Assembly (NCBI RefSeq): GCF_014196925.1 | Contig: NZ_JACIEN010000007.1 | Coordinates: forward strand, 124,001-188,000 | Direction: 5' to 3' | DNA length: 64,000 nt | Source of the DNA: Chelatococcus caeni | Lineage (GTDB): Bacteria > Pseudomonadota > Alphaproteobacteria > Rhizobiales > Beijerinckiaceae | Shown: positions 26,513 to 46,170 of the stretch, piece by piece | Position numbering within the stretch: the first letter of the stretch is position 1 | How the letters are laid out: each line of letters begins with the position of its first letter | Made by a program: the position numbers and the translations under genes | Notes under the pieces: generated by a model | Databases searched by the model: none | What the model saw: the letters and a program-made list of their open reading frames with translations, nothing else | What the model was told of the DNA's origin: nothing

Positions 26513-26709
26513 GTTGCCGCGGAAACGGCTCCGTGACCACGCGCACCGGGACGGATCCAGAGCGGCCCGCCAGCCATGGCTGAACATTGCAACGTTCGAA
26601 CCCCCCAGCCCATCGATCGGGGAGCAATTCTGCTGCTGGACGCCAAGCGCCAAGCGTCGGATACATTCATCCTGAGGCTGCAGAAACACGATTGCGCTGG
26701 GGAGCTGCA

Positions 26710-28308
26710 ATGATCCTGTCACAGGCCGCACGAGCGCGTATTCTTGCGCGTATTCCGGGAAAGCGAAGCATCGCGAAACCTTGCGGCGGTCTGATCGCCG
26801 CCGCGTTCGCCACGCTCGCTGCCGTTCATCCGTCCCGAGCCGAAGTCACCGCCGACAAGCTGCACGCGCTCGTGCCGGAGCTCGAGAAGCAGGTTGCCGC
26901 CGGGATGGAGGCGCTCTCGGTCCCCGGGCTCGCCATCGGCATCGTCTTCGACGACAAGCTGATCTACAGCAAGGGTTTTGGCGTCAAGACGATCGGCACG
27001 AGCGATGCTGTCACGCCCGGCACCATTTTCCAGATCGGCTCGACGACCAAGGCCTTCCTCGCTACATCGCTCGCCCAGGCGGTGGATGCCGGCAAGCTGA
27101 AGTGGACCGACCCCGTCACCGATCACATGCCCGATTTCCAGCTCGCCGACCCCTGGGTCTCGCGCGACTTTCGTATTCTCGACCTGGCGGCACAGCGCTC
27201 CGGCCTCACGTCTTACGTCAACGATAGCTTGGCGCTTCTCGGCTATGACACGAAGACGTTGATCCGATCCCTGCGCGTTGCGCCGCAGACAGGCATCTTC
27301 CGCTCGGATTTTCGCTATCTGAACATCCCGCACGTGGTCGGCGGCGAAGTAGTGGCAAAGGTCGACGCCGCGGCGTCATGGTTCGCGTCGGTCAAGCGGA
27401 CGCTGCTCGACCCGCTCGGCATGACGTCGACGACGGCCAGCCCGGAAGCCATCATGCAGGCCGCGGACCACGCGACGGGCCATAGGCCCGACGAACGCCC
27501 GATCGCGATCCCCTTCCATGTGTCCTTCCCTTATGCGCTCGGCCCGGCCGGCGCCTTCAACTCCAACGTGCCTGACATGGCGCAGTGGCTTCGCCTGCAG
27601 CTCGGGCGCGGACATTTCGGGGACAAGGCTCTGGTCTCGCAGGCCAATCTCGACGTGATCTGGACGCCGCGCGTCGCGATGAACGACCGCACGAGCTACG
27701 CCGTGGGCTGGGCCGTGGCCGCCACGCCGCGCGGCCGCGTGATCTGGCACAACGGCGGAACCACGGGGTTTGGCGCCCATGTCGGCTTCCTGCCGGATGC
27801 GAAGACCGGCATCGTCATCCTGACCAACCTCGGCAGCCCGGCGATGGCGGATGCCGTTGCCCAGTGGTTCTACGACCGTGTTCTCGACAACCCGCAGGTC
27901 GACCACATTGCGCTCGCTGCCGCGGCGGCGCGGGAGAGCCGGGAGCGGGAGCGGCAGGACGCTGCGTCATCTGCCACGGGGCCGTTGCCCGCCAATGCGA
28001 ATACCCTCGCAGGCCGCTACGTCTCGCCGGTCCTGGGTACTGCGTCGGTGGCGATCGCCGAAGGCAAGCTCCGGATGACGCTCGAAGCCACGCAGGCGAT
28101 CGTCCAGCTCGACGCCAGCAAGGACGATCCGAACGTCTTTTCAGCGCGGCTGTCACCCGAGGGAGTCTATGAACCGATCATCGCCATGACCGGCGATGCG
28201 CCCTTCACCCGGATCCGCTTTGAGCGCGACGACAGAGGTGATGTCGTTGGCATGCACTGGCTCAATCCCGCACTGCCGCACGCCTTTGCCCGCGCGCCGG
28301 GTCAATAG
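26710..28308 (+). CDS. Class C beta-lactamase-like serine hydrolase
   Basis: 532 residues from ATG 26710 (GGAG at 26701-26704). A signal peptide is present (LIAAAFATLAAVHPSRA). The serine beta-lactamase/DD-peptidase motifs are S111-T-T-K114 in QIGSTTKAFL, Y-L-N in RYLNIPHVVGG and H-N-G in IWHNGGTTGF, which replaces KTG as in class C/esterase relatives. A C-terminal extra domain of about 110 residues (NANTLAGRYVSPVLG) is like DUF3471. It is exported and probably acts on a wall- or ester-type substrate; real beta-lactam resistance is not shown. It is a single gene. Confidence 0.9.
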   Translation: MILSQAARARILARIPGKRSIAKPCGGLIAAAFATLAAVHPSRAEVTADKLHALVPELEKQVAAGMEALSVPGLAIGIVFDDKLIYSKGFGVKTIGTSDAVTPGTIFQIGSTTKAFLATSLAQAVDAGKLKWTDPVTDHMPDFQLADPWVSRDFRILDLAAQRSGLTSYVNDSLALLGYDTKTLIRSLRVAPQTGIFRSDFRYLNIPHVVGGEVVAKVDAAASWFASVKRTLLDPLGMTSTTASPEAIMQAADHATGHRPDERPIAIPFHVSFPYALGPAGAFNSNVPDMAQWLRLQLGRGHFGDKALVSQANLDVIWTPRVAMNDRTSYAVGWAVAATPRGRVIWHNGGTTGFGAHVGFLPDAKTGIVILTNLGSPAMADAVAQWFYDRVLDNPQVDHIALAAAAARESRERERQDAASSATGPLPANANTLAGRYVSPVLGTASVAIAEGKLRMTLEATQAIVQLDASKDDPNVFSARLSPEGVYEPIIAMTGDAPFTRIRFERDDRGDVVGMHWLNPALPHAFARAPGQ

Positions 28309-28571: not shown

Positions 28572-28775
28572 ACGGACCTTTTGTTCCCTGAAGCATCAAC
28601 TGCCGGCCGTCGCAGGAACGCGGGCGATGAGGATCAACGCCTTCGGGCGTCGGCACTTCTGCGCGCGCAGACGGTCATGAACATCCGCGCCCGAAGTAGT
28701 ATTGTCGCGGGACGAATCGCGGCTGGCGCCCGCTGCCGGCCCTTGCCGAAAATTCATCCAACAACGAGGTCACTG

Positions 28776-29741
28776 ATGAGGCCGATCGCGCTTGCCATCC
28801 ACGGCGGCTGTGGTGTCATGGCGAAGCTCGACCTGAGCGAGCAGGAATGGGTCGCCGCCCGCGCCGATCTTGCACGGTCGTTGCAGGCGGGCTGGGCGGT
28901 CCTGGCGGGCGGCGGCAGCGCGCTCGATGCGGTCGAGGCCGCGGTGGTGGTGATGGAGGATTCACCCCACTTCAATGCCGGTCATGGCGCGGCGCTCAAC
29001 GCTGCGGGCGAGCATGAGCTCGACGCCGCCGTCATGGACGGCAGCACGCTGGCCGCGGGGGCGGTGGCGGCCGCCAGGCGCATCCGCAACCCGGTGAAGG
29101 CCGCACGCGCCGTCATGGAGAGCGGCGAGGCCGTGATGCTGGCCGGCGGAGCGGCCGACGCCTTTGCGCGCGAGGCCGGCCTCGCCGTCGTCGATCCCTC
29201 GTATTTCACCACCGAGCGGCGCCTCGAGGCGCTCGCCCGGATGAAGGCCCGCGCCGCGGCCGGTACGGCGCAACTGGCGAGCGAGGCGGAGAAGCACGGC
29301 ACGGTCGGCGCGGTGGCATGCGACGGCGCTGGCCGCCTCGCCGCAGCGACCTCGACCGGCGGCTATACCAACAAGCCCGTCGGGCGCGTCGGCGATTCAC
29401 CCATCATCGGCGCCGGCACCTATGCGCGCGACGGCATCTGCGCCGTCTCGGGCACGGGCAAGGGGGAGTATTTCATCCGCCACGCGGTCGGCCACGAGGT
29501 GGCGAGCCGCATGGCCTATCTCGGCGAAAGCCTCACGGCTGCGGCGGCCAAGGTCATCCACGAGGACCTCGCGCCCTACGGCATCGGCGCCGGCCTCGTC
29601 GCGGTCGCGGCCGATGGCTCCGTCACGGCACCCTACAACACAGACGGCATGTTCCGTGGCTGGGTGACGGCGGAGGGACGCTTCCATGTCGCGTCCCACG
29701 CAGAGGTGTTCGAGGTGACGGAAGAATTCGCCCGGCCTTGA
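28776..29741 (+). CDS. iaaA: Isoaspartyl peptidase/L-asparaginase (type III, N-terminal nucleophile)
   Basis: 321 residues from ATG 28776 (GAGGT at 28766); the product opens RPIALAIHGGCG, the usual start of this family. It is an Ntn hydrolase: autocleavage between G175 and T176 in KHGTVGAV frees Thr176 as the nucleophile. The substrate-site motif TGGYTNKPVGRVGDSPIIGAGTY is complete. The E. coli homologue splits beta-aspartyl dipeptides and, weakly, asparagine. It faces the transaminase gene at 29764 across 22 bp. Together with the transporter and peptidase genes behind that, it supports a route for unusual peptides. Confidence 0.93.
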   Translation: MRPIALAIHGGCGVMAKLDLSEQEWVAARADLARSLQAGWAVLAGGGSALDAVEAAVVVMEDSPHFNAGHGAALNAAGEHELDAAVMDGSTLAAGAVAAARRIRNPVKAARAVMESGEAVMLAGGAADAFAREAGLAVVDPSYFTTERRLEALARMKARAAAGTAQLASEAEKHGTVGAVACDGAGRLAAATSTGGYTNKPVGRVGDSPIIGAGTYARDGICAVSGTGKGEYFIRHAVGHEVASRMAYLGESLTAAAAKVIHEDLAPYGIGAGLVAVAADGSVTAPYNTDGMFRGWVTAEGRFHVASHAEVFEVTEEFARP

Positions 29742-29763
29742 GGCCGGGCGAGAGCGGGGCCGG

Positions 29764-30630
29764 TCACCGGCCCTCGAGCGCGGCCTCGATGTAGAGCTGG
29801 CGCAGCTCGCGGGTGAGCGGCCCCGGGCTGCCGCCGCCGATCGGCCGGCCGTCGATGGACGTGACCGGCATGACGAGGCTGGAAGCGCTGGTGAAGAACG
29901 CCTCCTCAGCCGCGAGCGCCTCCTCCACGGTGAAGGGACGTTCGACGAAGGTCAGGCCCTTTTCTGCGACGAGACGCAGCACGGCGCGGCGGGTCACACC
30001 CGGCAGCACGGCGTGGGACAGGGGGCGCGAGACGATCTCACCGGCCTTGGTGACGATGAAGGCGGTAGAGGAGGCGCCCTCCGTGACCGTCCCGCCCTCG
30101 ACCATCCAGGCCTCGTTCACGCCTGCGGCAGCCGCCGCGCGCTTGGCGAGCACCTGGGCAAGGAGAGAGGTCGACTTGATGTCGCGCCGGGCCCAGCGCA
30201 GGTCGGGCACGGTGATGACGGCGGCACCCTTCGCCAGCGCTGCACTGGTGCGCACGGACTTTGCCTGGGTGAACATCACCACCGTCGGCGTGAGGCCGGC
30301 GGGAGAGAGGAAGTCACGCTCGGCAACGCCGCGCGTGACCTCGAGATAGATGAGGCCCTCCGAGAGATTGTTGCGGGCGACGAGCGCCTGCTGGATCTCC
30401 GTCCACGCCTCGCGCGAATGCGGATTGGGAATGTCGATCTCGCCGAGCGAGCGCTCGAGCCGCGCCAGATGCGGCTCGTTGTCGATCAGGTGCCCATCGA
30501 GGACCGCCGTCACCTCATAGATGCCGTCGCCGAAAAGGAAGCCGCGGTCCATCACCGGGATGGAAGCGGTCTCGATGGGGAGGAAGGCCCCGTTGACGTA
30601 GACAATGCGCGGCGCGGAAGTCTCTGCCAT
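29764..30630 (-). CDS. D-amino acid aminotransferase
   Basis: 288 residues from ATG 30630. Fold type IV PLP enzyme of the D-alanine transaminase/branched-chain group: the PLP lysine is K152 in RRDIKSTSLLAQV, and the front motifs VYVNGAFLP, DRGFLFGDGIYEV and EGGTVTEGASSTAFIV are complete. The RGF...GDG-Y pattern and DIKS match D-amino acid transaminases (DAAT) better than IlvE. It would swap the amino group between D-amino acids and 2-oxoacids. It is the last gene of the minus-strand peptide cluster, 77 bp after the D-aminopeptidase. Confidence 0.9.
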   Translation of the reverse strand: MAETSAPRIVYVNGAFLPIETASIPVMDRGFLFGDGIYEVTAVLDGHLIDNEPHLARLERSLGEIDIPNPHSREAWTEIQQALVARNNLSEGLIYLEVTRGVAERDFLSPAGLTPTVVMFTQAKSVRTSAALAKGAAVITVPDLRWARRDIKSTSLLAQVLAKRAAAAAGVNEAWMVEGGTVTEGASSTAFIVTKAGEIVSRPLSHAVLPGVTRRAVLRLVAEKGLTFVERPFTVEEALAAEEAFFTSASSLVMPVTSIDGRPIGGGSPGPLTRELRQLYIEAALEGR

Positions 30631-30707
30631 GGCTGGAATGTCCGATCTGTTGGCGGGCGTGGAGCGGAAAGGGAAGATCTGCGTCCTTGCAAGGGGAATG
30701 CGGCGCG

Positions 30708-31523
30708 TCAGCGCAGCATGGTCGACATCGCCGAAAGCGAATTGACGATACGCACCGCCGCCTCGACGGTTGGCGCCTCGAAGCCGATCTCGTCGCCGGA
30801 AAGGCGGCTCAGCGTCGGCCACTGACAGAAGAGATCGGCAAGCGCCGGCGTCTGCGTGCGGATGTGCGTCTTGATGGGGCCGGGCAGACGGAACGGCGGC
30901 GCTGGCGGGCGGGCGAGCGCCTCCTTCACGCCGGTGCGGATCGCCTCGCGCGCCCGCTCCGGCGAGAGGCTGATGCCGCTGTTGCAGCCGGTGGCGCGCT
31001 TGGTCTCGACGAAGACGGTGTGCGGGAACAGCTCGCGGTTCTCGCCGATGAACACGTCATCGCCGCTCGCCATGACGACGGGCGCGCCATATTCGCCGGC
31101 AAGCGCGCCGTAGATGCCGGCCTCGCCGAGTTCCAGCCCGTTGAATGCGATGCGGGCGAAGGCGAAGCTGTTGATGGTGTGGGCGAGGATGCCGCGGCCG
31201 TGGGCCCGCGAGTGATAGCCGACGAGGCAGACGGCATTCACCCCCTCCTCGACGCCCGCCACCATGCTGAGATAGCGCGGCTTGCCCTGCACGACCCGGG
31301 CGCGCGCGTCGAGCCGCTCGGCCGGCATGTTGCGGAAACCGCCGTGGGAATCGTTGACGATGACTTCGCTCGCGCCGGCCTCGAAGGCCCCGGCGACAGC
31401 CGCATTCGCCTCTTCCGCCATCAACAGGCGAGCCCGCTCGTATTCGCCGTTGCCGGCGCGCGTCTGCTCGGGGTGGTAGACGCCGGCAACGCCCTCGATG
31501 TCGACGGAGATGAGAACCTTCAT
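30708..31523 (-). CDS. dppA: D-aminopeptidase, M55 family (DppA)
   Basis: 271 residues. The zinc ligands of Bacillus subtilis DppA are all at the expected places: D8 and E10 in ISVDIEG, H60 in VNDSHGG, H104 in VGYHSR, and E134 in LGEAG; H115 is the likely catalytic His. It cuts D-amino acids from the N-terminus of peptides and assembles as a ring-shaped decamer in B. subtilis. In that species dppA leads a dipeptide ABC operon, as here. It overlaps the DmpA-type gene by 4 bases (ATGA). Confidence 0.94.
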   Translation of the reverse strand: MKVLISVDIEGVAGVYHPEQTRAGNGEYERARLLMAEEANAAVAGAFEAGASEVIVNDSHGGFRNMPAERLDARARVVQGKPRYLSMVAGVEEGVNAVCLVGYHSRAHGRGILAHTINSFAFARIAFNGLELGEAGIYGALAGEYGAPVVMASGDDVFIGENRELFPHTVFVETKRATGCNSGISLSPERAREAIRTGVKEALARPPAPPFRLPGPIKTHIRTQTPALADLFCQWPTLSRLSGDEIGFEAPTVEAAVRIVNSLSAMSTMLR

Positions 31524-32623
31524 GCGGTGCGCTCCGAAAGGAGGGAGGGAAGATCGGGCATCAGCTCGAGCAACGCCTGCCGCCGGTGGCCATCACGGCC
31601 GGTGACCGTCTCCGCCCGCCACAGCGCATGGATGATGGCCTGCTCGGCACTGTCGGCAACGGCCTGGAACAGCGGATCGATGAGCGCATCGTGCAGCATG
31701 GCGATGGCCGGCATGGGGCGAGCCGCATCCTGCGGCAGCGTATAGGCGGTGGAGAAGGCGAGCGCGATGTCGCCGCTGCCGTGGCCGAAGACGGAGCCGG
31801 TGCGGGCGAGCCCGGCGGCGCTGCGCAACGAGAGGCGGCCGAGCTGGCGCGTGTCGAGCGGCGCGTCCGTGGCGATGAGGAGGATGATCGAGCCTTTCTC
31901 CTGTGCCTCGCCCTCCCCTCCGGCGGCGTCTTCCCTCACGGCGGCGAGCCGCTCGGCGAGCACGGGTCCGATGGCACGGCCGGCGAGGGTGAGCTGCGCC
32001 GCCCGGCCGAAATTCGCCAACACCAGCGCGCCGACGGTGAAAACGCGGCCCTTCGCCACCTCGGCGCGGCGCGAGGCCGTGCCGATGCCGCCCTTGACGC
32101 CGAAGCTCGCCATGCCGCGCCCGGCGCCGACCGCCCCTTCCGCCACATCCGGGCCGGCGGCGGCGCAGGCGTCGCGGTAATGCGGCTCGCCGACCGCCAT
32201 GGCCTGGATGTCGTTGAGGTAGCCGTCGTTGCACTCGAAGACGAGCGGATTGACCGTCGGCAGGCGCCGCCCGCATTGCGGATTGGCCGCGATCGTCTGG
32301 TGGATCTGCGCCTCGGCCACGGCGGCGACCGAGAAGGTGTTGGTGAGCGCGATTGGCGTCTCGATGACGCCGAGCTCCTCCACCTGCACGAGGCCGATGC
32401 TCTTGCCGAAGCCGTTGATCACGCTTACCGCCGCCGGCACCCGGTCGCGGTAGAAGTCCCCCGCGTGCGGGCGCACGACCGTGACGCCGGTCTGCACGGG
32501 ACCGTCGGCGAGCGTCGCATGGCCGACGCTGACGCCGGCAACGTCGGTGATCGCGTTGCGCGGGCCGGCTGTGAGCGTGCCGACATGCGGCGGGGTGGTA
32601 TCCCGGACGGACATGATGCTCAT
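31520..32623 (-). CDS. P1-family peptidase, DmpA/D-aminopeptidase-esterase type
   Basis: 367 residues. The self-processing site G244-S245 in [16 protein letters not shown] matches the DmpA precursor cut (Ser becomes the N-terminal nucleophile of the beta chain). Other family landmarks are [13 protein letters not shown] at the start, and [10 protein letters not shown] and GAVGAGRGM in the alpha chain. DmpA enzymes remove both L- and D-residues from peptides and amides, and cleave beta-peptides. Its start overlaps the end of the dppC-type gene (ATGA), and its end overlaps dppA. It is the second peptidase of a probable D-/beta-peptide pathway. Confidence 0.93.
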
Positions 32624-33525
32624 TTGCGGTCGATCTTCGGGTCGAGCGCGTCGCGCAGCCCGTCGCCGAGCAGGTTGAAGGCGAGCACCGTGAAGAAGAT
32701 GGCAAGGCTCGGGAAGAGCGCCACATGCGGCGCGTTGACCATGTCGGCGCGCGCGTCATTGAGCATCGCGCCCCATTCCGGCGTCGGCGGCTGGGCGCCG
32801 AGACCGAGGAAGGAGAGGCTCGCGGCCGTGATGATCGAGGTGCCGAGGCGCATCGTGAAATAGACCACGATGGACGAGACGGTGCCCGGCAGGATGTGGC
32901 GCACGAGGATGGTCCAGTCGGAAGCGCCGATGCTCTTCACCGCCTCCACATAGGTCATGCGCTTCAGGACCAGCGTATTGCCGCGCACGAGGCGGGCAAA
33001 GGCCGGCACGGAGAAGACGGAGACGGCGACGACCACGTTGAACAGCGAGCCGCCGAGAATGGCAACGATGCCGAGGGCGAGAAGAATACCGGGGAAGGCG
33101 AAGAGCACGTCGCAGATGCGCATGACGATGCGGTCCCACCAGCCCTCGTAATAGCCGGCGAGGAGGCCGAGCGTCGTGCCGACGAGCCCGCCGAGCGCCA
33201 CCGAGGCAAGGCCGGTGGCGAGCGAGATGCGCGCGCCCATCAGGATGCGGCTGAAGATGTCGCGCCCGAGCGGGTCGACGCCGAGCCAGTGCGACCACGA
33301 CGGGCCGGCATTGAGCTGGTCGTAGTCGAAGTAGTTCTCCGGGTCGAACGGCACGATCCACGGCGCCAGCACGGCCAGCAGCGTGAGCAGCGCCACGAAG
33401 GTGAGCGCCGCGAGCGCCACCGGCTGGCGGCGGAAGCGGCGCCAGAACTCCCTCAGGGGCGTGCGCACGGCCTCGCCCGTTGTGGCGGAAGCGGGGGAGA
33501 CGAGCTCGGTCGCGGTATCGGTCAT
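32620..33525 (-). CDS. dppC: Dipeptide ABC transporter permease (DppC type)
   Basis: 301 residues. A long cytoplasmic N-terminus precedes TM1 ([21 protein letters not shown]). It has the OppC N-terminal domain and the binding-protein-dependent transport core with the EAA-like loop [23 protein letters not shown] (shortened: [20 protein letters not shown]), which docks on the ATPase. [12 protein letters not shown] near the C-terminus is typical of DppC/GsiD. It is co-transcribed with DppB upstream (7-bp gap) and overlaps the DmpA gene downstream (ATGA). Confidence 0.94.
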
Positions 33526-33532
33526 GGCCGGC

Positions 33533-34453
33533 TCAACTGTAGCGGATGGTGGGGTTAATGACGCCGTAAAGCAGATCCACGACGAGATTGATGAGGATGA
33601 ATTCGAGCGAGAACATCAGCACCAGCGCCTGGATCACCGGATAGTCGCGCTGCGCCACGGCATCGACGAGGAGGCGGCCGACGCCCGGCCAGTTGAACAC
33701 CGCCTCGACGACGATGGAGCCGCCGAGCAGGAAGCCGAACTGCAGGCCCATCATGGTCACGACGGGGATGAGCGCGTTGCGCAGGCAATGCTTCAGGATG
33801 ACGATGCGCTCGTTGAGGCCCTTGGCCCGGGCGGTGCGGACGAAATCCTCATGCAGCACGTCGACGAAGGAGGCGCGCGTGAAGCGCGCCATGACGGCCG
33901 CGACCGCCGCGCCGAGCGTCAGCGACGGCAGGATGTAGTGCTTCCAGCTGTCGGCGCCGACGGTGGGCAGCCAGCCGAGCCCGACGGAAAAGATCTGCAT
34001 GAGCAGCATGCCGAGCGCGAAAGCGGGGAAGGAGATGCCGGAGACCGCCAATGTCATGCCGAGCCGGTCCGGCCAGCGGTTGCGATAGACGGCCGAGGCA
34101 ATGCCGATCGTCATGCCGAAGATGACGGCCCAGACCATGCTGGTGAGCGTCAACAACAGCGTCGGCATGAAGCGCTCGGCGATTTCGGTCGAGACCGGCC
34201 GGCGCGTGCGGATGGAGCGGCCGAAGTCGCCCTCGAAGATATGGGTGAAATAGGTGACGAACTGCTGCGGCAGCGGCTTGTCGAGGCCGAGTTCGCTGCG
34301 CACGAGGGCGAGCGTCTGCTCGTCCGCATCCTGCCCGGCCACGAGCCGCGCCGGGTCGCCCGGCAGCATGTGCACGAAGAAGAACACGAGCACCGAGACG
34401 ATCAGGAGTGTGGGGAGGAGCCCCAACAGCCGTTTGAGGAAATAGTGCAGCAT
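33533..34453 (-). CDS. dppB: Dipeptide ABC transporter permease (DppB type)
   Basis: 306 residues with six membrane helices. The N-terminus [34 protein letters not shown] (two parts: [20 protein letters not shown] and HMLPGDP) is the DppB/OppB signature, and [21 protein letters not shown] is the EAA loop. It forms the channel with DppC. The gap to the upstream binding-protein gene (150 bp) contains two strong hairpins; the gap to dppC is 7 bp. Confidence 0.95.
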
Positions 34454-34524
34454 GGTTCCGGATCGGCCTGGGTGGACAAGGGACGAGAAGTGTTGCGGGC
34501 GGGCGGCGCTCCCTCTCGCCGCAA

Positions 34525-34588
34525 CGGATCTCGGGCTTGCCCGAGATCCGAATTATTCTTGCGCAAGTCGGGTAAACCCGACTTGCGC
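34525..34588. repeat. Two perfect hairpins between binding-protein and permease genes
   Basis: Stem 1: CGGATCTCGGGC (34525-34536) with GCCCGAGATCCG (34539-34550), 12 bp, 2-nt loop. Stem 2: GCGCAAGTCGGGT (34561-34573) with ACCCGACTTGCGC (34576-34588), 13 bp, 2-nt loop. They are separated by AATTATTCTT. They sit 17 bases after the binding-protein stop and before dppB. Such paired palindromes in rhizobial genomes are often mobile (RIME/Pu-like) and protect the upstream mRNA part, raising binding-protein expression over permease; this is inferred. Confidence 0.6.
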
Positions 34589-34605
34589 GGGGAGGGGGCT
34601 ACCCT

Positions 34606-36156
34606 TTACTCCGAAACGGCGATCTCGCTCGCCTCGATGTTGCCGTCGGGCATGACGTAGACGCCGGAGAGACGCTTGGAGGTGGCGTAGAGGTTCTTCT
34701 CCGTCACCAGCGGCGCCCACGGCGCGTCCTTGAAGATCTGCTCCTGCGCCTTCTTGTAGAGCTCCGCCTTCTCCTCGTCCTTCACCGAGCGCAGGGCCTT
34801 GGCGATATAGGCGTCCACTTCCTCGTTGCTGTAGTAGGCGGTGTTGTTGAGCTTCGGCGGCCAGGCCTCGGTCGACAGCAGCGGCCTCAGCGCCCAGTCG
34901 GCCTCACCCGTCGAGGACGACCAGCCGGCGTAGTACATGCGCACCTTGGCCGTCTTCGGATCGGGCGCGGACTGCACCCACTCGGTGCGCTGGCCAGGCT
35001 CGAGCGCCTGGATCTGCACCTTGATGCCGACCTGCGCCAGCTGCTGCTGCAGGAACTGGATGGCCTTCTGCGCCGTCGTGGTGGTGTAGGCGCTCCAGAG
35101 GATCGACTCGAAACCGTTCGGATAGCCGGCTTCCTTGAGCAGCTCGCGCGCCTTGGCCGGGTCATAGGGCCAGGGCTGCATCTTGTGGGCGTAGAGCACG
35201 CCCTCCGGCACGATGCCTTCGGCCGGCGAGGCGAAGCCGTTGAAGGCGACCTTGGCGAGCGCTTCCTTGTTGATGGCGTAGTTGATCGCCTGGCGCACGC
35301 GGATGTCGTCGAAGGGCTTCTGCAGCGTGTTGAAGCTGACGTAGCGCTCGATGATCGACGGGCTGATCGTCACGTTGAGCTTGTCGCTCGCCTGCAGGGC
35401 CGCCGTCTGCTCATAGGGCAGCGGGAAGGCAAAGTCGGCCTCGCCCGTCTGCAGCATGGCGGCGCGGGTATTGTTCTCCAGCACCGGCTTCCAGGTGATG
35501 GAATCGACCTTGGGGAAGTCCTTCTTCCAATAGCCGTCGAACTTCTTCACCTTGACGTAGTCGGTCTGCTTCCAGTCCTCGAAGACGAAGGGACCCGTGC
35601 CGACAGGGTTAAAGGCGATGTCCTTGTTGCCGTATTTGGCAAGGGCCGCCGGCGAGATGATCGCGGCCGAAGCGTGGGCCAGCGAGTTGATGAAGGGCCC
35701 GAAGGCGTCCTTCAGCGTGATCTTGACGACGTAGGGCGAGACGACCTCGACCTTGTCGATGCGGTTGAACTGGTTGTAGCGGGCGAGCTTGTTTTCGGGA
35801 TTGAGCACCCGCTCGAACGACACCTTGACGGCTTCGGCGTTGAAGTCGGTGCCGTCGTGGAACTTGACGCCCTCGCGCAGCTTGAAGGTGTAGACGAGAC
35901 CGTCATCCGAGACGGTGTAGCTCTCGGCCAGCACCGGCCGCACCTTGAGGTCCTTATCGAACTCGAACAGGCCCTGGTAGAACGACTTGGTGACGGCGGT
36001 CGTCAGCGTCGTGTTGGTGTTGTAGGGGTCGAGCGTCTCCGGCTGACCGCCGATGGCGAGCACGACATCCTTGGCGGCGAGCGCCGGCGCGGTGCCGAGC
36101 ATGAGGGCCAGAAGGCCGGAAGCGATTGTCAAACCTCGTGGAAGTGAACTTTTCAT
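34606..36156 (-). CDS. dppA: Peptide-binding protein of the ABC importer (SBP family 5)
   Basis: 516 residues from ATG 36156, with GGGAG 8 bases before it. The signal peptide is [24 protein letters not shown]. Family 5 solute-binding features: LDPYNTNTT at the N-terminus, [20 protein letters not shown] (with the conserved HDG), then [11 protein letters not shown] and, near the end, [12 protein letters not shown]. It binds oligo- or dipeptides in the periplasm and delivers them to DppBC. The gene symbol is that of the dipeptide-binding protein and clashes with the peptidase name dppA of Bacillus. Two hairpins follow it. Confidence 0.93.
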
Positions 36157-36197
36157 TGGAACGGCTCCCGTTGCAGTGAAGCGATCAAGAGGGGCAG

Positions 36198-38099
<1,902 letters not shown>

Positions 38100-38180
38100 G
38101 GCAAGGTGAGCTCGCTCACGAAGTTGGGTGGCCGGCGAAGGCCGGGCTGGCGAAGATGGCAAGGGGGTGGTCGCGCACGG

Positions 38181-39137
38181 TCAGCGGCCCTGGCGTGGCT
38201 TCTGGCCCCGCCGGGGCGTGGGAGGAGACGGCGCCTGCCTGTCCCACGCGCTTGATGGCCTCAGCGCCCCCGCATGGTTGCCGTGCAGCCAGGGCAGCAC
38301 GGCCTCTGCCAGTTCGGCCGCCGCCTCCACGGATCGGCCGGAGGCGTGGGCGACGGCGCTGCTCAAGGCCTCGATCAGAGCCAGTGAGCTCGCCTCGCAA
38401 TTGGCGAAGAACTGGCTGTCGCCATGGGCGAAAAGCGCGACCGTGGCGAGCGAGGCGAGCGGCGAGCTGGGGCTCTCGGTGAGGGCCAGCACGTCGGCGC
38501 CCGCCTCCCGGGCGCGCCGCGTCAGCAGCAAGGTGTCCGACAGATAGCGCGGGAAGGCGATGGTGATGACGAGATCGCCGGGCTTTGCCCGGTGGAGAAT
38601 GCGGGCCGCGTGCGAAGAACCCTCCATGCTGGCGAGCAGTTGCACCCGGTCGCAGAAGAGTTCGAGCTTGCGCAGGAGAAGGCCGGCGAGCCAGACGCTG
38701 CTGCCAAGGCCGAGGATGAAGACGCGCCGGGCGCCGAGAATGGCGGCGACGGCGCGCGTGCAGGCCTCCGTATCCAGGCCCTGCCGCGTCCGGTCGATGT
38801 TGTGCGCCGTCTCTGCAAGGGTCGCGGCCAGGATGTCGGCGGCGCTCGCCGGCTGCTCCGGCTTTCCGCGCAGCTTCTCCACCGGCGCCAGCGCCGTCTC
38901 GAAGCCGAGCACCAGCGCGGTGCGGAACTGCGCATAGCCGTCGAAGCCGAGAGCGCGGGCGAAGCGGTTGGCGGTGGCGACCGACACGCCGACGATCGAC
39001 GCCAGTTCATCGATGGGCATGGCCGCGACGCGCAGCGGATGGTCGAGGACGTAATTGGCGATCTGGCGATGCGACGGCGACAGAACGGCGCGGGAAATGC
39101 GCTGCGCTATGGAGGGTTCGTCGAAAGCCGTGGCCAT
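38181..39137 (-). CDS. RpiR-family regulator with SIS domain
   Basis: 318 residues. An HTH_6 (RpiR) domain fills about 1-80 (LSPSHRQIANYVLDHPLRVAAMPIDELASIVGVSVATANRFARALGF; key parts VSVATANRFARALGF). A SIS sugar-isomerase fold follows at about 105-260 (RRVFILGLGSSVWLAGLLLRKLE; FPRYLSDTLLLTRRAREAGADVLALTES). The C-terminus is a Pro/Arg-rich tail. RpiR proteins with SIS domains sense phosphosugars or amino-sugar phosphates. It lies just upstream of the importer in the same direction, so it is the likely regulator. A sugar-phosphate sensor for a peptide system hints that the signal or substrate may be wall-derived (muropeptide), but that is inference. Confidence 0.9.
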   Translation of the reverse strand: MATAFDEPSIAQRISRAVLSPSHRQIANYVLDHPLRVAAMPIDELASIVGVSVATANRFARALGFDGYAQFRTALVLGFETALAPVEKLRGKPEQPASAADILAATLAETAHNIDRTRQGLDTEACTRAVAAILGARRVFILGLGSSVWLAGLLLRKLELFCDRVQLLASMEGSSHAARILHRAKPGDLVITIAFPRYLSDTLLLTRRAREAGADVLALTESPSSPLASLATVALFAHGDSQFFANCEASSLALIEALSSAVAHASGRSVEAAAELAEAVLPWLHGNHAGALRPSSAWDRQAPSPPTPRRGQKPRQGR

Positions 39138-39289
39138 CGCAGGTCGTTCACCTTGCCGGCGCGACCGGCGGATGATCAGAAATTTTCACGCTCGGATTCG
39201 TAGCGATATTTTTTGATCGCGCAAGAGCGTGTTGATCGCTTTCTGTCCAGGCTTGCCGAAACCGCGCTGCATGACGTCGACGAGGACGT

Positions 39290-39489
39290 CCGCCGGACGT
39301 CCGCTGGACAATCGCCGAGATGGAGGCTCAGGCTGTAATCCCCTCGACCCGCTCCCGCAAGCTCCCGATCCCGCACGACGAGACCATCACACGCAGCGCA
39401 ACCGCATCCGCTGCTTCAACAAGCTCAAGCACTTCCGCCCCTTCGCCATGGGTTACGACTGTCCTGCGCTGAATCTGGATTCGGCCTAG
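39290..39489 (+). mobile_element. IS5-family transposase remnant, frameshifted
   Basis: The first part (frame with ATC at 39338) reads TIAEMEAQAVIPSTRSRKLPIPHDETI; restoring one T after ATC near 39388-39390 continues as YTQRNRIRCFNKLKHF, then RPFAMGYD to the stop at 39487-39489. IS5-type transposases contain the block RNRIERCFNKLKHFRRF with the catalytic Glu; here the Glu is missing and the downstream end is cut. Only about 65 of about 250 residues survive, and no terminal inverted repeat is seen, so the element is dead. Confidence 0.75.
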
Positions 39490-39761: not shown

Positions 39762-40139
39762 ATGAGTAAGAACATATTCGAGATCTCATTTGACTGGTCT
39801 CAGGACTTATTAATTCCGCTTGAGCTGTGATTCACGGTCACCGTAGAAGGAGATCGAATCACGATCCCACAAATAGCTGACCTAAAGCATCTGCATGATC
39901 AGCTCTTCGCAAGGTTGGGTAGACCCGATTCCTCATCAGCGATGCTGAGAACATTCCGCGCAGCCACAGGGACGATGTTCTGGATCGAAGCGTCAAGCCC
40001 GATCACAGAGGTTGCCGAGGCGATCACCTCAACGCCGCGTGCCATCCGGGTCATTGTTCATGAAGTAGAACCGGACGCTATTCGCTACGCGTCCGAGCTC
40101 AACGCAAACGCCGACCGTTCCCGGCTTTGTCCTGGGTAA
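39762..40139 (+). pseudogene. Unknown ORF interrupted by a single TGA
   Basis: ATG 39762 opens MSKNIFEISFDWSQDLLIPLEL, then TGA at 39828-39830, and the same frame continues for 102 codons (VTVEGDRITIPQIADLKHLH; FRAATGTMFWIEASSP; EVAEAITSTPRAIRVIVHEV) to the stop at 40137-40139. Both parts have natural amino-acid use and a base composition poorer in G+C than the surroundings. A C-to-T change (CGA to TGA) would explain the interruption. The last 55 bases overlap the end of the phosphodiesterase gene on the other strand. The family is not recognised. Confidence 0.5.
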
Positions 40140-40942
40140 TCGGCAGGCAGAATGAACGGAAATGGGCCAGGTGCCCTGTTCACATTCGCCGTGTGGGTGA
40201 CAACGTCACCCTGTGCGAAGCGATGCAGGAGGAACTCCGGGGTCTCCAGCACGAAACAGGACGGACCCTCCGGCCGCAGATCCAGGGCCACCTGATGCCC
40301 GACCGAAGGCGCGATCTGGCACAGCGTGCCGCCGAAGATGTGCTGGACGGAGCGATGGACGTGCCCGCACAGGATACGCCGCACCTGGCGGTTGGCGGCA
40401 ACAATCCTTTCCAGCTGCTCAGACCCTTCCAGCAGCCGTGCCGCGTCCATATGCGCAATGCCGGTGTCAAAAGGCGGATGATGCAGCATGATGAGGGTGG
40501 GTGCATCGGGAGATCCAGCCAGGGTCTCTTCGAGGAACCTGATCGTTTCGGATCGAAGGGCGCCGTGGCTCGATCCGGCAACCAGACTGTCGAGGCCGAT
40601 GACGTGGATCGGGCCGCACCAGACAGCAAAATTCAGGGGGCCGCTTACGGGGAGATAGCCTCCTTGCGCGAAAGCCCGCCGGAAGGACTCGCGCCGGTCG
40701 TGATTGCCCGGCACCGCATAGACCGGGCATGGCATGCGGCCCAGGAGTTCCGCGACGATGGCGTATTCTTCGTCCAACCCACAGTCGGTGAGGTCGCCGG
40801 TGACCAGGAGGCAATCCGGCTTTGGGTCCAGCCGAAGCAAGGCGTGGATGGCGTGCTCGGCAAAGAGGTTGGTTTCGGAAACACCATAGGCGAGCTGACC
40901 CTTGGGCCGGATGTGCAGGTCAGAGATCTGGGCGATAAGCAT
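40085..40942 (-). CDS. GpdQ/CpdA-like cyclic or glycerophosphodiesterase
   Basis: 285 residues, calcineurin-like metallophosphoesterase. The metal ligands follow the GpdQ layout exactly: D8 and H10 (ISDLH), D50 (VTGD), N80 and H81 (PGNHD), H154/H155 (LHHPPFD), H194 and H196 (CGHVH). That set binds two metals and cuts phosphodiesters. It lies directly after the ATPase of an ABC importer (stop and start at 40942/40943), as the last gene of a LacI-led operon, so the substrate is likely the imported organophosphate, for instance a glycerophosphodiester. That is inference from context. Confidence 0.88.
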   Translation of the reverse strand: MLIAQISDLHIRPKGQLAYGVSETNLFAEHAIHALLRLDPKPDCLLVTGDLTDCGLDEEYAIVAELLGRMPCPVYAVPGNHDRRESFRRAFAQGGYLPVSGPLNFAVWCGPIHVIGLDSLVAGSSHGALRSETIRFLEETLAGSPDAPTLIMLHHPPFDTGIAHMDAARLLEGSEQLERIVAANRQVRRILCGHVHRSVQHIFGGTLCQIAPSVGHQVALDLRPEGPSCFVLETPEFLLHRFAQGDVVTHTANVNRAPGPFPFILPADYPGQSRERSAFALSSDA

Positions 40943-42019
40943 TCAGGCCTCGGTTTGGAATTCGATAATGGCAGCAGGGTCGATCTCGAAAGCGAGGATC
41001 TGGCCCGGTGTGACGGAAACATTCGACGGCAAATCGAGCTGCAGCCGGCATTCGGACGAAACCTCGGCGACCAGCCGTTGCGTCGCGCCGAAGAAGGTCG
41101 TCGCGGCAACACGGGCGCTGATGGCTCCGTTTGCGGAAGCCAGCCGCGCGGCCTCTGGCCGGAAGCAGAGCGTGGTCGCACGATCCGGGCCGCCGACATT
41201 CAGCCTCGCCATGGTTTCGCCGCCGTGGATGTTGAGCAGCCCATTTTCCACGCGCCCGGCGATCCGGTTCATCGTTCCGACGAAGTCGGCAACGAAATCA
41301 TTTGCCGGCCGATGGTAGATCTCCTTCGGCACGTCGATCTGCGCGATGCGGCCTTTCTCCATGACGGCGATGCGGTCACCGATCGCCATGGCCTCTGCCT
41401 GATCGTGGGTGACATAAACGGCAGTAATCCCGAACTCGCGCAGCAGAAGACCGATCTCAACGCGCAACCGCTCGCGCAGCACCGCATCGAGCGCGGCCAG
41501 CGGCTCATCGAGGAGCAAGACACGGGGTTTGATCGCCAGGGCCCGAGCCAGCGCAGTGCGCTGGCGCTGGCCGCCGGAGACCGCCGAGATGCGGCGATCG
41601 GCGTATTCCTCCAGGCCAACCAGAGCCAAGAGGCGACGGGTCTCGGCCTCGCGCTGCGCACGCTCCACTTTGCGCACCTTCAGACCGTAGCCGACGTTCT
41701 CGGCGACGGTCATATTCGGAAACAGCGCATAAGATTGGAAGACCATGCCGACGTTGCGCTTCTCGATCGGCACGCCGCTGACATCCTCACCGTCGAAGCG
41801 GATCATGTCCGGTCCGTCGGGCTGTTCCAGTCCGGCGATCAGGCGCAGGAGCGTGGTCTTGCCGCAGCCGGACGGACCCAGCAGGACCAGGATCTGGCCG
41901 GCGGGGATTTCCAGGTCGGTAGGGTGCAGAACCGTCGTTCCGTTGAAACTCTTGCTGAGCCGACGCGTCGCAATGGACGCGCCGCTTCGAGTGGTCACCA
42001 TAGGGGCGTGAGTGTTCAT
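40943..42019 (-). CDS. ABC importer ATPase (PotA/AfuC/UgpC-like)
   Basis: 358 residues from ATG 42019, overlapping the permease stop by 4 bases (ATGA). Walker A GPSGCGKTTLL (about 47-57), signature VSGGQRQRTALARALA, Walker B VLLLDEPLAALD, H-loop VYVTHDQAEAMAIGD. The C-terminal TOBE domain (about 270-355) is typical of sugar, spermidine and Fe/phosphonate type importers. It is encoded behind the two permeases and before the phosphodiesterase. Confidence 0.94.
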   Translation of the reverse strand: MNTHAPMVTTRSGASIATRRLSKSFNGTTVLHPTDLEIPAGQILVLLGPSGCGKTTLLRLIAGLEQPDGPDMIRFDGEDVSGVPIEKRNVGMVFQSYALFPNMTVAENVGYGLKVRKVERAQREAETRRLLALVGLEEYADRRISAVSGGQRQRTALARALAIKPRVLLLDEPLAALDAVLRERLRVEIGLLLREFGITAVYVTHDQAEAMAIGDRIAVMEKGRIAQIDVPKEIYHRPANDFVADFVGTMNRIAGRVENGLLNIHGGETMARLNVGGPDRATTLCFRPEAARLASANGAISARVAATTFFGATQRLVAEVSSECRLQLDLPSNVSVTPGQILAFEIDPAAIIEFQTEA

Positions 42020-42810
42020 GATGCGGTCCGTTTTTCGGTGAAGTCGGCGACCAGCTGGACGCCGATCAGCAGCGGGATGACCATGACCAGGAAGACGATG
42101 GTGTAGGCCGAGGCTATCTCGAGCCGCATCGAGGCATAGGCATCGGCCAGGCCCACAGGCAGGGTTTTGGTCATCGGCGTGTGCATCATCCAGGTGAGAT
42201 TGAATTCGCCGATGGAGAGCGTCACGACCGTCAGCGCCCCCGCGACGATGCCCGGCCGCACGTTCGGCAGGATCACGTCGATGAAGCGTCGCCAGGCCGG
42301 AGCACCGAGACTTGCCGCGCCTTCGTCGAGCGTGCGCCAGTCTATCGTCTCGAGCACGGCGATGACCGAGCGCATCATAAAAGGCAGGGTGAAGAGGACG
42401 TGGCCGACCACGACGAACAGCGTCGATTGCCGGAAGGCGCCCGCGCCGCCGTAGCTCAGGATAAGCGCCAGCGCGAGCGCAAGGCCGGGCACGGCGACCG
42501 GAAGCGTCACGATCTCTTCGACGGCACGCGCGAAACGGCCGCCCTTGCGCACCAGCGCGTAGGCGCCGGGAACGCCAATCAGCAGCGTCACCACCAGCGT
42601 CAGCAGCGCGACGACAAGGCTGCGCCAAACGGTATCGGCATAGAGCCCCCAGACCTGGCCTACCCAGTCGAGGGTAAATCCGGCGGAGGGCCCGCGGGCA
42701 TAGTTGACGGCCAGGCCCGCATAGACGGAAAGCAGCACGGGAACGACGAGGAACAGGGAGAGCAAGGCCGTGATGACGATGCCGGCGGTCGAGGTCCACT
42801 GGCGGCGCAT
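42016..42810 (-). CDS. ABC importer permease (PotC/PhnV type)
   Basis: 264 residues, six membrane helices, with the first at GIVITALLSLFLVVPVLLSVYAG (shortened). The EAA loop is LDEGAASLGAPAWRRFIDVILPNVRPG, key part EGAASLGAPAWRRFIDVILP, which contacts the ATPase. It pairs with the permease encoded immediately upstream (1 bp gap) and overlaps the ATPase gene (ATGA). Confidence 0.93.
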   Translation of the reverse strand: MRRQWTSTAGIVITALLSLFLVVPVLLSVYAGLAVNYARGPSAGFTLDWVGQVWGLYADTVWRSLVVALLTLVVTLLIGVPGAYALVRKGGRFARAVEEIVTLPVAVPGLALALALILSYGGAGAFRQSTLFVVVGHVLFTLPFMMRSVIAVLETIDWRTLDEGAASLGAPAWRRFIDVILPNVRPGIVAGALTVVTLSIGEFNLTWMMHTPMTKTLPVGLADAYASMRLEIASAYTIVFLVMVIPLLIGVQLVADFTEKRTAS

Positions 42811-42811
42811 C

Positions 42812-43624
42812 TCAGCCCCCCTTCACGTCGCGCATGGCGCGGTTGCGGGCAATGGCCAGCGCGGCCCAGGTGATCAGGCCGAGCGCGATGGAGATCGCGG
42901 CGGCCATGCTGGCATTGGTGGCGAGCGTGAACTCGGTGTAGATCAGCAGCGGCACCACGTCGATGTTGGTGGCAAGCGTGAAAGCGGTGCCGAAGGCGCC
43001 CATTGCCGTGGCGAAGCACAGCGCCCCGCCGGTGTACATGGCCGGGAACAGCGCCGGCAGCACGACGTCGCGCTGTATGGCGAAGGGGCTGGCGCCCAGC
43101 GAGCGGGCGGCCTCGACCAGCGAGGGATCGAGCTTCTCTGCCGCCGCGAGGATGGTCAATAGAACACGCGGCACAGAGAAGTAGAGGTAGCCGAGGAACA
43201 ACCCGAACAGCGAATAGGCGAAGACCACGTTCGTGCCGACCAGGCTTTTGGTGACGCTGCCTACAAGTCCGAGGCGGCCGCCAAACAGAATGATCATGAA
43301 GCCGACCACCACGCCTGGAAAGGCCAGCGGGAATGTCAGCATTGACAGGAGCAACCCACGGCCGGTGAATCGCCTGTTGGCAAGCGTCTGGGCGGCGATC
43401 GTTGCCACTGCCAGCGTCGCGACGGTTGTGACGATTGCAAGCAGAAGGGTCACGATCAGGCTGTTGCGAAAGCGGGCCTCGGTCAGGATGACCAAGAACC
43501 CGGCGAGACCTTGCGGCCCGCTGCCGGCCTCAGCGATCAGCCGAGCCACGGGCAGAATGAGAAAGGCCAGCGTGAAAATCGCGAGAGGCAGAATCAGGAA
43601 AAAATCAAAGCGCCTGCTGTTCAA
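42812..43624 (-). CDS. ABC importer permease (PotB/PhnU type)
   Basis: 270 residues, six membrane helices beginning FFLILPLAIFTLAFLILPVARL. The EAA loop is PSLVEAARSLGASPFAIQRDVVLP. It forms the channel with the second permease 1 bp downstream. Upstream lies a hairpin and then the binding-protein gene. Confidence 0.93.
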   Translation of the reverse strand: MNSRRFDFFLILPLAIFTLAFLILPVARLIAEAGSGPQGLAGFLVILTEARFRNSLIVTLLLAIVTTVATLAVATIAAQTLANRRFTGRGLLLSMLTFPLAFPGVVVGFMIILFGGRLGLVGSVTKSLVGTNVVFAYSLFGLFLGYLYFSVPRVLLTILAAAEKLDPSLVEAARSLGASPFAIQRDVVLPALFPAMYTGGALCFATAMGAFGTAFTLATNIDVVPLLIYTEFTLATNASMAAAISIALGLITWAALAIARNRAMRDVKGG

Positions 43625-43660
43625 CGAAGCCTCCGGCGAAAATCGATGAGAAAATCCTGC

Positions 43661-43685
43661 CGGGAAGGGACCAGCCCTTCCCGGG
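43661..43685. repeat. Hairpin between binding-protein and permease genes
   Basis: CCGGGAAGGG (43661-43670) pairs with CCCTTCCCGG (43676-43685) around a 5-nt loop. On the minus strand it comes 13 bases after the binding-protein stop and is followed by GGATTTTC, a partial terminator. It would lower permease against binding-protein mRNA. Confidence 0.6.
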
Positions 43686-43698
43686 AGGGGGTCGCCCG

Positions 43699-44724
43699 TC
43701 AGCGCACTTCCGACAGGTAACGTTCCGAGAACGCTGCCTGCGCAGCCTGGGCCTGGTCCCAGTCGATGGCTTTGGCGCGCTGATACTCGCTTGCCGGCAG
43801 GAACCGGTTCGCAATGTCCGCCGGCATTTCGACCGGGAGGACCGGACGCAGATAGGCCGTCGTCCAGAACAACTGGCCCTTGTCCGAGAGCAGGTAGTCG
43901 AGCACTTTCTTCCCGGTTTCGGCACGCGGGGCGTTCTTCACGAGCGTCATGACATAGGGAAAGGTGATGGAGCCTTCGCAGGGCAGGACGAACTCGAACT
44001 TGCCGGATTCGGTGTATTTTGCCCGATAGGCGTTGAAGTCGTAGTCCATCAGGATCGGGATCTCACCGGACACGGTGCGCGCATAGGAGGTCTGCTTGGT
44101 GACGATCGCTCCGTTTCCGGCGAGTTCCTTGAGGAAGCCGATCGCGGGCGTGAAATCGTCGAACGAGCCGCCCAGCGCAGTGTTGATGGCAACGGCCGAC
44201 GCGTAGCCGACCGCCGCCGAGGTCGGATCGAGATAGCCGACGAGGCCGTTGTATTCCGGCTTCTTCAGGTCAGCCCAGCAGGCCGGGACAGGCGCGTTGC
44301 CGAGGGCGTCGACATTGACGAAGAGGCCGAGCGTGCCCTGATGCACGGCCCACCAGCGACCCTCGGGATCCTTGAGCCCTTCGGGGATCTCGTCGAAGCG
44401 CTGCGGCTTCCAGGCCTCCACCAGGCCCTGCGCGGCGGCCGAAATGCCCGCATTGACGCCCAGATAGGCGATGTCGGCGACCGGGCTCGCTTTCTCGGCG
44501 ATGATCTGGGCGACTGCCTGACCCGAATTCTTGTTGTCGCCCGGAATGTCGATGTCGAGGTCGGCCTTGATGTTTTTCAGCATCTCGCCCCAGTTCGCCC
44601 ATTCGGGCGGACAATTGTAACAGATGGCGTCCTGCGCCTGCGCCTGCGCCTGGACAGGAGCCAAGGCGAAAATGCTGGCAGCGGCCGCCAGACCGAGGCC
44701 AAGGGAAAGAACAGTCGTCTTCAT
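43699..44724 (-). CDS. ABC importer substrate-binding protein (family 1, AfuA/FbpA-like)
   Basis: 341 residues with a signal peptide (VLSLGLGLAAAASIFALAPVQA) and a short AQAQAQ repeat at the cleavage region. The mature protein has the family 1 pattern: the hinge-domain run VADIAYLGVNAGISAAAQG and the second-domain part GYLDPTSAAVGYASAVAINTALGG. GQLFWTTAYLRPVLP near the end is typical of AfuA/phosphonate-type binders. It follows the LacI gene (28-bp gap) on the same strand. The ligand is not certain; the phosphodiesterase suggests a phosphate ester. Confidence 0.9.
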   Translation of the reverse strand: MKTTVLSLGLGLAAAASIFALAPVQAQAQAQDAICYNCPPEWANWGEMLKNIKADLDIDIPGDNKNSGQAVAQIIAEKASPVADIAYLGVNAGISAAAQGLVEAWKPQRFDEIPEGLKDPEGRWWAVHQGTLGLFVNVDALGNAPVPACWADLKKPEYNGLVGYLDPTSAAVGYASAVAINTALGGSFDDFTPAIGFLKELAGNGAIVTKQTSYARTVSGEIPILMDYDFNAYRAKYTESGKFEFVLPCEGSITFPYVMTLVKNAPRAETGKKVLDYLLSDKGQLFWTTAYLRPVLPVEMPADIANRFLPASEYQRAKAIDWDQAQAAQAAFSERYLSEVR

Positions 44725-44752
44725 TGTCGTCGCTTTCTCTATTCGGTGAGGT

Positions 44753-45769: not shown

Positions 45770-46170
45770 CGCCCTGCCCCGTTCCGGCCGCTTCTTCTTC
45801 GGCCGGGTCGGAGGTAGCATGCGAACGTATTGGCTGGATGACGTTGTTTCAGTCGTTTTCAGCGCGTCGCACCCACGATTGGTCCCGCCGGCGAGCGCAT
45901 CGCCTCGGGATCTCGTGCCAGAACTCAGATGCGGTGGAAAAAGATTGCTTTGCCGAGAATGGTCGCCGCTCTCTCCAGCTAGCTCATTCTCGAGACTTCG
46001 ATGGGATTGACGTGAAGCCGGGTTTAAGCTTGAGGAAGCACGCCTCTGGTCTCACAGCAAATCCAAAGGCGACGATCGGACATGCAGTCTCATAACGGCA
46101 CGGCCGATGTTTCTAGCTCTTGGGCCTCCTCCTCATTACGAGAACATCTCACGGTCCTTGATCCGCCGCA
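45770..46170. other. Upstream region of the LacI operon and start of the decayed zone
   Basis: About 400 bp without a recognised gene. Next to the LacI start the motif TTTCAG occurs twice one helical turn apart (in 45843-45862), a possible operator half-pair. Short plus-strand frames run into the trbB remnant but show no homology I can name. Confidence 0.35.

Follow-up and report, generated by a model that had tools for sequence, protein, structure and literature searches.

Which peptides does a bacterium import and open with a locus that brings together three peptidases (IaaA, M55 and S58/P1), a D-amino-acid transaminase, the importer GsiABCD and an RpiR-type regulator? This question is raised by a stretch of 64,000 nucleotides of Chelatococcus caeni (hereafter the window; C7:124001-188000 of the 5.43-Mb genome G000). 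The closest named match to the genome is Chelatococcus sambhunathii, whose S58 protein is 96% identical. The initial annotation had read the locus as an integrated cluster for the uptake and breakdown of D-, beta- or wall-derived peptides, and this interpretation is partly supported by our analysis. The gene set is a conserved operon that occurs in similar form in many other bacteria. From homology and family chemistry, we think it rather probable that the operon is under local control and serves to take up and salvage peptides resistant to ordinary L-alpha-peptidases.

The genes were assessed by Pfam and NCBIfam profile scores; the Pfam scan, as well as the NCBIfam scores of GsiA and GsiB, refers to the longest open reading frames (ORFs). 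As annotated initially, all of the named genes are packed at 28776-39137, and each scored above its own Pfam cut-off: Asparaginase_2, Aminotran_4, Peptidase_M55, Peptidase_S58, two BPD_transp_1, SBP_bac_5, a double ABC_tran and HTH_6 with SIS (Table 1). GsiB, GsiC and GsiD were also above the NCBIfam Gsi equivalog cut-offs and GsiA was just below. On the minus strand, the genes are transcribed in the order RpiR, GsiA, GsiB, GsiC, GsiD, S58, M55 and transaminase. Overlaps of 4 nt between GsiD and S58 and between S58 and M55 suggest coupled translation. The iaaA gene is part of the cluster, but it does not share the transcript of the other genes, since it lies on the plus strand and is convergent with them, ending 22 nt from the transaminase stop.

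The conservation of the set was examined by scanning genome contigs with the S58 protein. This yielded 332 relatives, the best 80 of which were kept as loci (L numbers), and linkage was counted in loci with enough flanking DNA (denominators 68-78). S58 was followed by M55 in 77 of 78 testable loci, and GsiD was found directly before S58 in 77/78. GsiABCD stood together in 68 of 69 loci and IaaA directly before GsiA in 66 of 69, where L034 was scored as a miss though its IaaA overlaps GsiA by 4 nt. The usual order is RpiR-IaaA-GsiABCD-S58-M55, and under a strict spacing rule the full set was present in 50/68 loci. For RpiR, strict spacing gave 53/69, but the 16 misses include 12 loci (Achromobacter, Bordetella) in which an RpiR gene lies upstream after all; none was seen in L025, L026, L031 and L033 (three Budviciaceae and one metagenome-assembled Rhodoferax genome), all with sufficient upstream DNA. 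L182 carries a diverged set (38-65% identity) in another order, RpiR-transaminase-GsiABCD-S58-M55-IaaA, which indicates that the set stays together through rearrangement. The genes are thus not scattered in all relatives, an outcome that the initial annotation had considered, and the integrated unit that it proposed is linked across alpha-, beta- and gammaproteobacteria. Two more genes recur downstream of M55 in 22/80 and 21/80 loci (Cupriavidus and relatives; for example L014, 11933-13871).

Linkage was also assessed in genome draws that were not chosen by S58, using a threshold of at least 42% identity for M55 and counting neighbours within 1.5 kb. In the phylum draw (398 genomes), M55 matches were found in 22 genomes. 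Sixteen of them reached the threshold, and of these all 16 carried GsiD and 15 carried S58; among the other six, one (G694) showed S58 and a Gsi-like ATPase nearby. The class draw (289 genomes) gave M55 matches in 13 genomes, five at or above 42%, and the window's own genome, G324 and G110 were those with GsiD and S58. In the family draw (60 genomes), four matches were observed including the own genome, the others at 42% or less. Pooling the three draws left 20 distinct M55 genomes at or above the threshold, with GsiD in 17, S58 in 16 and neither in three. Linkage outside the S58-chosen loci therefore mostly holds, with 3/20 exceptions, and the stricter idea that M55 is always tied to the operon was rejected. 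A GsiD survey of the 398 phylum genomes (E <= 1e-100, up to five candidates scored per genome) matched at least 24 genomes with at least 29 loci; all counts in this survey are lower bounds. GsiD copies of at least 72% identity outside family f187 had M55 beside them in 10/10 cases and S58 in 9/10, whereas 13 f187 copies at 74-78% had M55 in 0/13 and S58 in 0/13 within 1.5 kb. Six diverged GsiD copies (57-59%), five of which are second copies in f187 genomes, all had S58 and M55 beside them. These loci (L174-L178 and L179) represent a second, diverged gsi operon, and the five f187 genomes also hold the classic one.

We read f187 as the family of E. coli because E. coli lies among the f187 rows in a tree of GsiC and GsiD. 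This tree has 51 rows and is drawn from its midpoint, with the deepest ingroup fork left open. In E. coli MG1655 (NC_000913.3) the order is iaaA-gsiA-gsiB-gsiC-gsiD-pdeI, that is, IaaA and GsiABCD in the same order and on one strand, but without S58, M55, RpiR and the transaminase at this place. Identities to E. coli in tblastn were 77% for GsiC, 72% for GsiD, 69% for GsiA, 59% for GsiB and 47% for IaaA. The 14 rows without S58-M55 (13 f187 rows and E. coli) form one clade (support 100/99), which is sister to Budviciaceae with S58-M55 (100/97), and the diverged S58-M55 copies fall outside. Support is lower (85/88) at the fork where the E. coli/Budviciaceae group joins the next one. The operons of alphaproteobacteria are placed within those of betaproteobacteria. 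Judged from this tree, the absence of S58 and M55 on the enteric branch is most simply a single loss, and the gsi operon of E. coli seems to derive by reduction from an S58-M55 operon. The initial description of the locus as joining the logic of the E. coli and Bacillus systems is, for E. coli, better reversed.

The homologies suggest how the proteins might work together. GsiB would bind short peptides that have reached the periplasm, and these would be imported intact by the permeases GsiC and GsiD, driven by the double ATPase GsiA. In the cytoplasm, IaaA would remove beta-linked (isoaspartyl) Asp, M55 would remove N-terminal D-residues and the S58/P1 enzyme small D- or beta-residues, after which the transaminase would turn the freed D-amino acids into keto acids. 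RpiR would bind its own promoter region and be relieved by a ligand. For the enzyme families concerned, IaaA enzymes are described as promiscuous for beta-aspartyl dipeptides (PMC10206079; this and the other papers given by PMC number are cited from excerpts), and BapA and DmpA cleave N-terminal beta-residues (PMC10531186).

The residues of the active sites are conserved in alignments from which short rows were left out (M55 L041 and L070, IaaA L032, transaminase L007, RpiR L070). M55, aligned to B. subtilis DppA (1hi9), keeps D8, E10, H60, H104, H115 and E134 in 77/77 rows, and we take their metal-binding and catalytic roles to be those in DppA. The nucleophile Thr176 of IaaA is present in 69/69 rows. 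S58 has several elements in common with DmpA of Ochrobactrum anthropi and BapA of Sphingosinicella: a processing site, which is Gly-Ser (BapA has Asn-Ser), an Asn for the oxyanion and a Ser paired with an acid (here Asp), the nucleophile region lying at Ser245; the roles of these elements are presumably as in DmpA and BapA. However, the labels DmpA and DppA of the initial annotation proved too specific, whereas the families S58/P1 and M55 stand. S58 is closer to the archaeal P. horikoshii protein 2drh (300 bits) than to DmpA (1b65, 178 bits) or BapA (180 bits). Its 'ECND' motif is shared only by 2drh among five solved S58 relatives, and a second S58-family protein of the genome (29%, L002) does not carry it. 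M55 matches the DppA equivalog (NCBIfam AmiPeptDppABac) partially, over residues 1-205, with 161.1 bits versus a cut-off of 430. IaaA is likewise below its equivalog PRK10226 (256.9 versus 567 bits). For the transaminase, the proposed D-amino-acid type holds at the level of the subfamily PRK06680 but not of the equivalog TIGR01121 (234 versus 277 bits).

Sugar-phosphate sensors of the RpiR/SIS type carry a Ser/Thr-rich phosphate loop, S-x-S-G-x-T. The initial annotation had taken the SIS domain to indicate an amino-sugar phosphate signal. RpiR proteins were recovered from 65 loci, and in all of the 65 aligned rows (the window and 64 of the 65 loci) the loop is replaced by PRY followed by D-T/S (PRYxxD[T/S]), whereas 4ivn, which we take to be a sugar-phosphate regulator, has SSSGSTKE at this place. 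The operon RpiR thus lacks the Ser/Thr-rich loop, which weakens the assumed signal. Since the Ser of the first SIS motif is kept in 65/65 rows, it is likely that the protein binds a changed ligand rather than none. The loop Arg could bind a carboxylate. A similar RYL loop is present in another RpiR protein, 3sho, so the loop is not unique to the operon. Upstream of RpiR, the palindrome TGWAAATNNATTTWCA, which was derived from the same upstream regions that it was scored on, reached a mean of 12.8/14 in 66 regions versus 8.7 in 1320 shuffles, with a score of at least 13 in 47/66 regions and in no shuffle. Alphaproteobacterial palindromes are degenerate, that of the window scoring 11/14. A second element, GATNAAAAAATATCG, is found once in the genome at up to one mismatch, and the regulator therefore looks dedicated to this operon.

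To what natural source such a pathway would be directed can be narrowed by comparing the possible substrates. Spontaneous damage to Asp and Asn gives L-isoAsp, D-Asp and D-isoAsp together. IaaA, M55, S58 and the transaminase would be able to handle this mixture together, and we prefer the hypothesis that the operon draws on peptides of dead cells that have been isomerised and racemised by ageing. Peptidoglycan is the main rival source: in the manner of Bacillus dppABCDE, the operon might take up D-Ala-D-Ala or fragments of muropeptides that stem from the cell wall. The homology of M55 to B. subtilis DppA is in line with this, and a D-aminopeptidase together with a D-amino-acid transaminase would fit D-Ala and D-Glu. 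However, the phosphate loop is altered in every RpiR row, IaaA has, to our knowledge, no obvious role on ordinary peptidoglycan, and beyond the operon genes and their antisense ORFs no further family occurs in more than 29/80 loci, muropeptide-recycling families such as LD-carboxypeptidase, L-Ala-D/L-Glu epimerase and DL-endopeptidase not having been searched individually. The muropeptide source favoured initially is thus weakened and seems rather unlikely.

It is improbable that the operon serves glutathione or other gamma-glutamyl peptides, with the transporter working as in E. coli and the peptidases digesting what follows. In favour of this, E. coli Gsi imports glutathione disulfide (GSSG; PMC11719327), GsiB, GsiC and GsiD exceed the cut-offs of the glutathione-transporter equivalogs, and GsiB is closely related to YliB of E. 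coli (651 bits against the YliB/GsiB structure 1uqw). On the other hand, the Pfam and NCBIfam scans assigned no operon protein to any family of gamma-glutamyl hydrolases (for GsiA, among its best 25 NCBIfam families), and the experimentally tested clade is the one without S58 and M55. We also know of no IaaA, S58 or M55 enzyme for gamma-Glu bonds. Use of cyanophycin (beta-Asp-Arg), close to the beta-Asp peptides that were initially kept as an alternative, is very doubtful. IaaA enzymes do cleave beta-Asp-Arg, and a locus for the use of cyanophycin has been described that contains cyanophycinase, iadA and a transporter and in which, as may be the case here, isoaspartyl dipeptidase genes (IaaA or IadA) are clustered for the use of beta-aspartyl peptides (PMC10206079). 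In contrast, our genome has no match to the cyanophycinase family PF03575 (0/1, versus 10/14 controls matching), and a substrate made of L-Asp and L-Arg would leave M55 and S58 without a task. That the genes travel together by chance or mobility without a joint function is hardly credible either: in Chelatococcus the block seems to have been acquired whole, its flanks being different, a degenerate transposase-like fragment adjoins it by eye and M55 is also found away from the operon, but the same genes stand together in three classes, in different orders and with 4-nt overlaps.

Several observations weigh against the proposed salvage of damaged peptides by one fixed set of genes. In S58, the position of DmpA Tyr146 (Leu in BapA) is Asn in 81/81 rows, and the more diverged S58 proteins that were inspected have Asn there as well. 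A specificity for D- or beta-residues can therefore not be transferred to the operon enzyme. As E. coli Gsi imports GSSG, GsiB may here bind gamma-glutamyl peptides instead. The transaminase follows M55 in 7/77 testable loci (L004-L010, presumably all Rhizobiales), and the Methylobacterium locus L015 has neither transaminase nor M55. The three exceptions in the M55 draws are G236 and G331 (one genus; L184 and L183; M55 46-49%), where no operon genes were found in 19 kb, and G019 (M55 42%), where M55 lies inside another dipeptide-transporter cluster with no S58 or IaaA in 19.5 kb. They do not affect the GsiD survey. In the second operons of f187, IaaA was present within 1.5 kb of M55 in 2/5 and absent in 3/5.

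The origin of the locus in Chelatococcus is suggested by the unusual position of iaaA. In blastn, identity with C. sambhunathii (L004, 20,967 bases compared) is 95% over 28678-39239 and stops at both ends. The window IaaA is 47-54% identical to ten operon IaaAs, not counting that of C. sambhunathii, and these ten share 57-89% identity among themselves; the other operon proteins of the window are 54-90% identical to those of the same ten loci (GsiD is outside this comparison). In the IaaA tree, the window protein clusters within its own bacterial family (15 rows, 100/99), apart from 21 operon IaaAs (97/98). The in-operon iaaA is missing in Chelatococcus and a family-type iaaA, the only PF01112 match in the genome, stands at the 3' end of the operon. 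Because of this tree, the rarity of M55 in the family (4/60) and the ends of the block common with C. sambhunathii, it is most likely that the operon was acquired, its own iaaA was lost and a family-type iaaA was placed at the 3' end. The source of this iaaA may be a cluster like that of G051, where a dipeptide transporter adjoins another S58 (51%) and, after it, IaaA (76%). IaaA matches were present in 20 genomes of the family, and in 12 of these the region within about 1.5 kb held S58, a binding protein resembling GsiB (27-31%) or, for the window's own genome, the operon described here. A candidate remnant of the lost iaaA in the 81-bp gap between RpiR and GsiA, noticed by eye from its likeness to the C-terminus of rhizobial IaaA, is not significant, as 10/500 shuffles and 29/1500 window stretches score equally. 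The remnant was therefore rejected and lends our interpretation no support.

In the congener G058, genes for S58, IaaA and the transaminase form a separate, independent group next to another dipeptide transporter (L114, 8049-11025). This group supports the proposed uptake and salvage, as does the family-type iaaA at the operon end where the in-operon copy is missing. At the edge of the common block and upstream of the RpiR gene, 39229-39489 (+) holds an ORF end that by eye resembles the degenerate tail of a transposase, presumably of IS5 type as judged from a motif known to us. Beside iaaA, 26587-28308 (+) encodes a serine hydrolase of the S12 beta-lactamase family that also matches DUF3471 weakly. 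It was rejected as a member of the system, as the common block ends at 28678 and an S12 match of at least 30% was found in 0/80 loci. On the other side, ABC transporter genes, a family-6 binding protein, a LacI-type regulator and a metallophosphoesterase adjoin the operon (40085-45820, minus strand) and are apparently unrelated.

Table 1. Predicted genes and features of the locus, with positions in the window (aa, amino acids)
Feature	Position	Strand	Evidence
iaaA, isoaspartyl peptidase / plant-type asparaginase, 321 aa	28776..29741	+	PF01112 320.7 bits
D-amino-acid transaminase, 288 aa	29764..30630	-	PRK06680 376.8 bits vs cut-off 320
M55 D-aminopeptidase, 271 aa	30708..31523	-	PF04951 307.9 bits; start overlaps S58 stop
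S58/P1 autoprocessing aminopeptidase, 367 aa, 'ECND' subclade	31520..32623	-	PF03576 372.5 bits; start overlaps GsiD stop
gsiD, permease	32620..33525	-	PRK15082 571.5 vs cut-off 484
gsiC, permease	33533..34453	-	PRK15081 607.7 vs cut-off 463
gsiB, periplasmic binding protein, 516 aa	34606..36156	-	PRK15413 746.4 vs cut-off 594
gsiA, double ATPase, 633 aa	36198..38099	-	two ABC_tran stretches; PRK10261 1045.6 bits vs cut-off 1077
RpiR-type regulator with SIS domain, 318 aa	38181..39137	-	PF01418+PF01380; non-canonical phosphate loop IAFPRYLSDT
Predicted operator region, GATCAAAAAATATCG and TGAAAATTTCTGATCA	39173..39218	-	first element found once in the genome at up to one mismatch; related palindrome upstream of RpiR in other loci
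Block common with Chelatococcus sambhunathii, 95% DNA identity	28678..39239		blastn; flanks not common

Parts of the operon have counterparts in described systems. The dppABCDE operon of B. subtilis, in what we take to be its gene order, also links an M55 D-aminopeptidase to a dipeptide ABC importer, whereas the window has a Gsi-type importer, a separate S58 and IaaA, an RpiR regulator and an M55 protein below the DppA cut-off. In Blastomonas fulva, genes labelled mlrB, mlrD1-4 and mlrC place a dipeptide-type ABC transporter and M55 under neighbouring locus tags beside the MlrB-labelled gene; in the excerpt, the transporter is likened partly to D,D-dipeptide types and neither IaaA nor S58 is named (PMC9505733). 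For the combination as a whole, no description was found in the titles and abstract openings of open-licence PMC papers on the combination and its enzymes.

According to an excerpt of PMC7147457, which cites John-White 2019, it is unknown what P1 peptidases act on in nature. Where such an enzyme shares a fixed operon with an importer, a regulator and partner peptidases, this question comes down to one testable binding protein and one deletion. Our data also suggest that E. coli Gsi was studied in a branch without the partner enzymes, and its role in glutathione import may thus be derived or a side function. A wider picture, which we offer as tentative and which may well fail in one of its parts, is that the E. 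coli glutathione importer operon is the remnant of an older, widespread operon for damaged (isomerised or racemised) peptides, that this operon is a natural setting of the 'ECND' branch of S58/P1 enzymes, and that the signal sensed by its RpiR through the Arg-Tyr loop is a peptide or an amino acid rather than a sugar phosphate. If this is true, a pathway would be named for the peptides that ordinary peptidases leave behind in natural peptide recycling.

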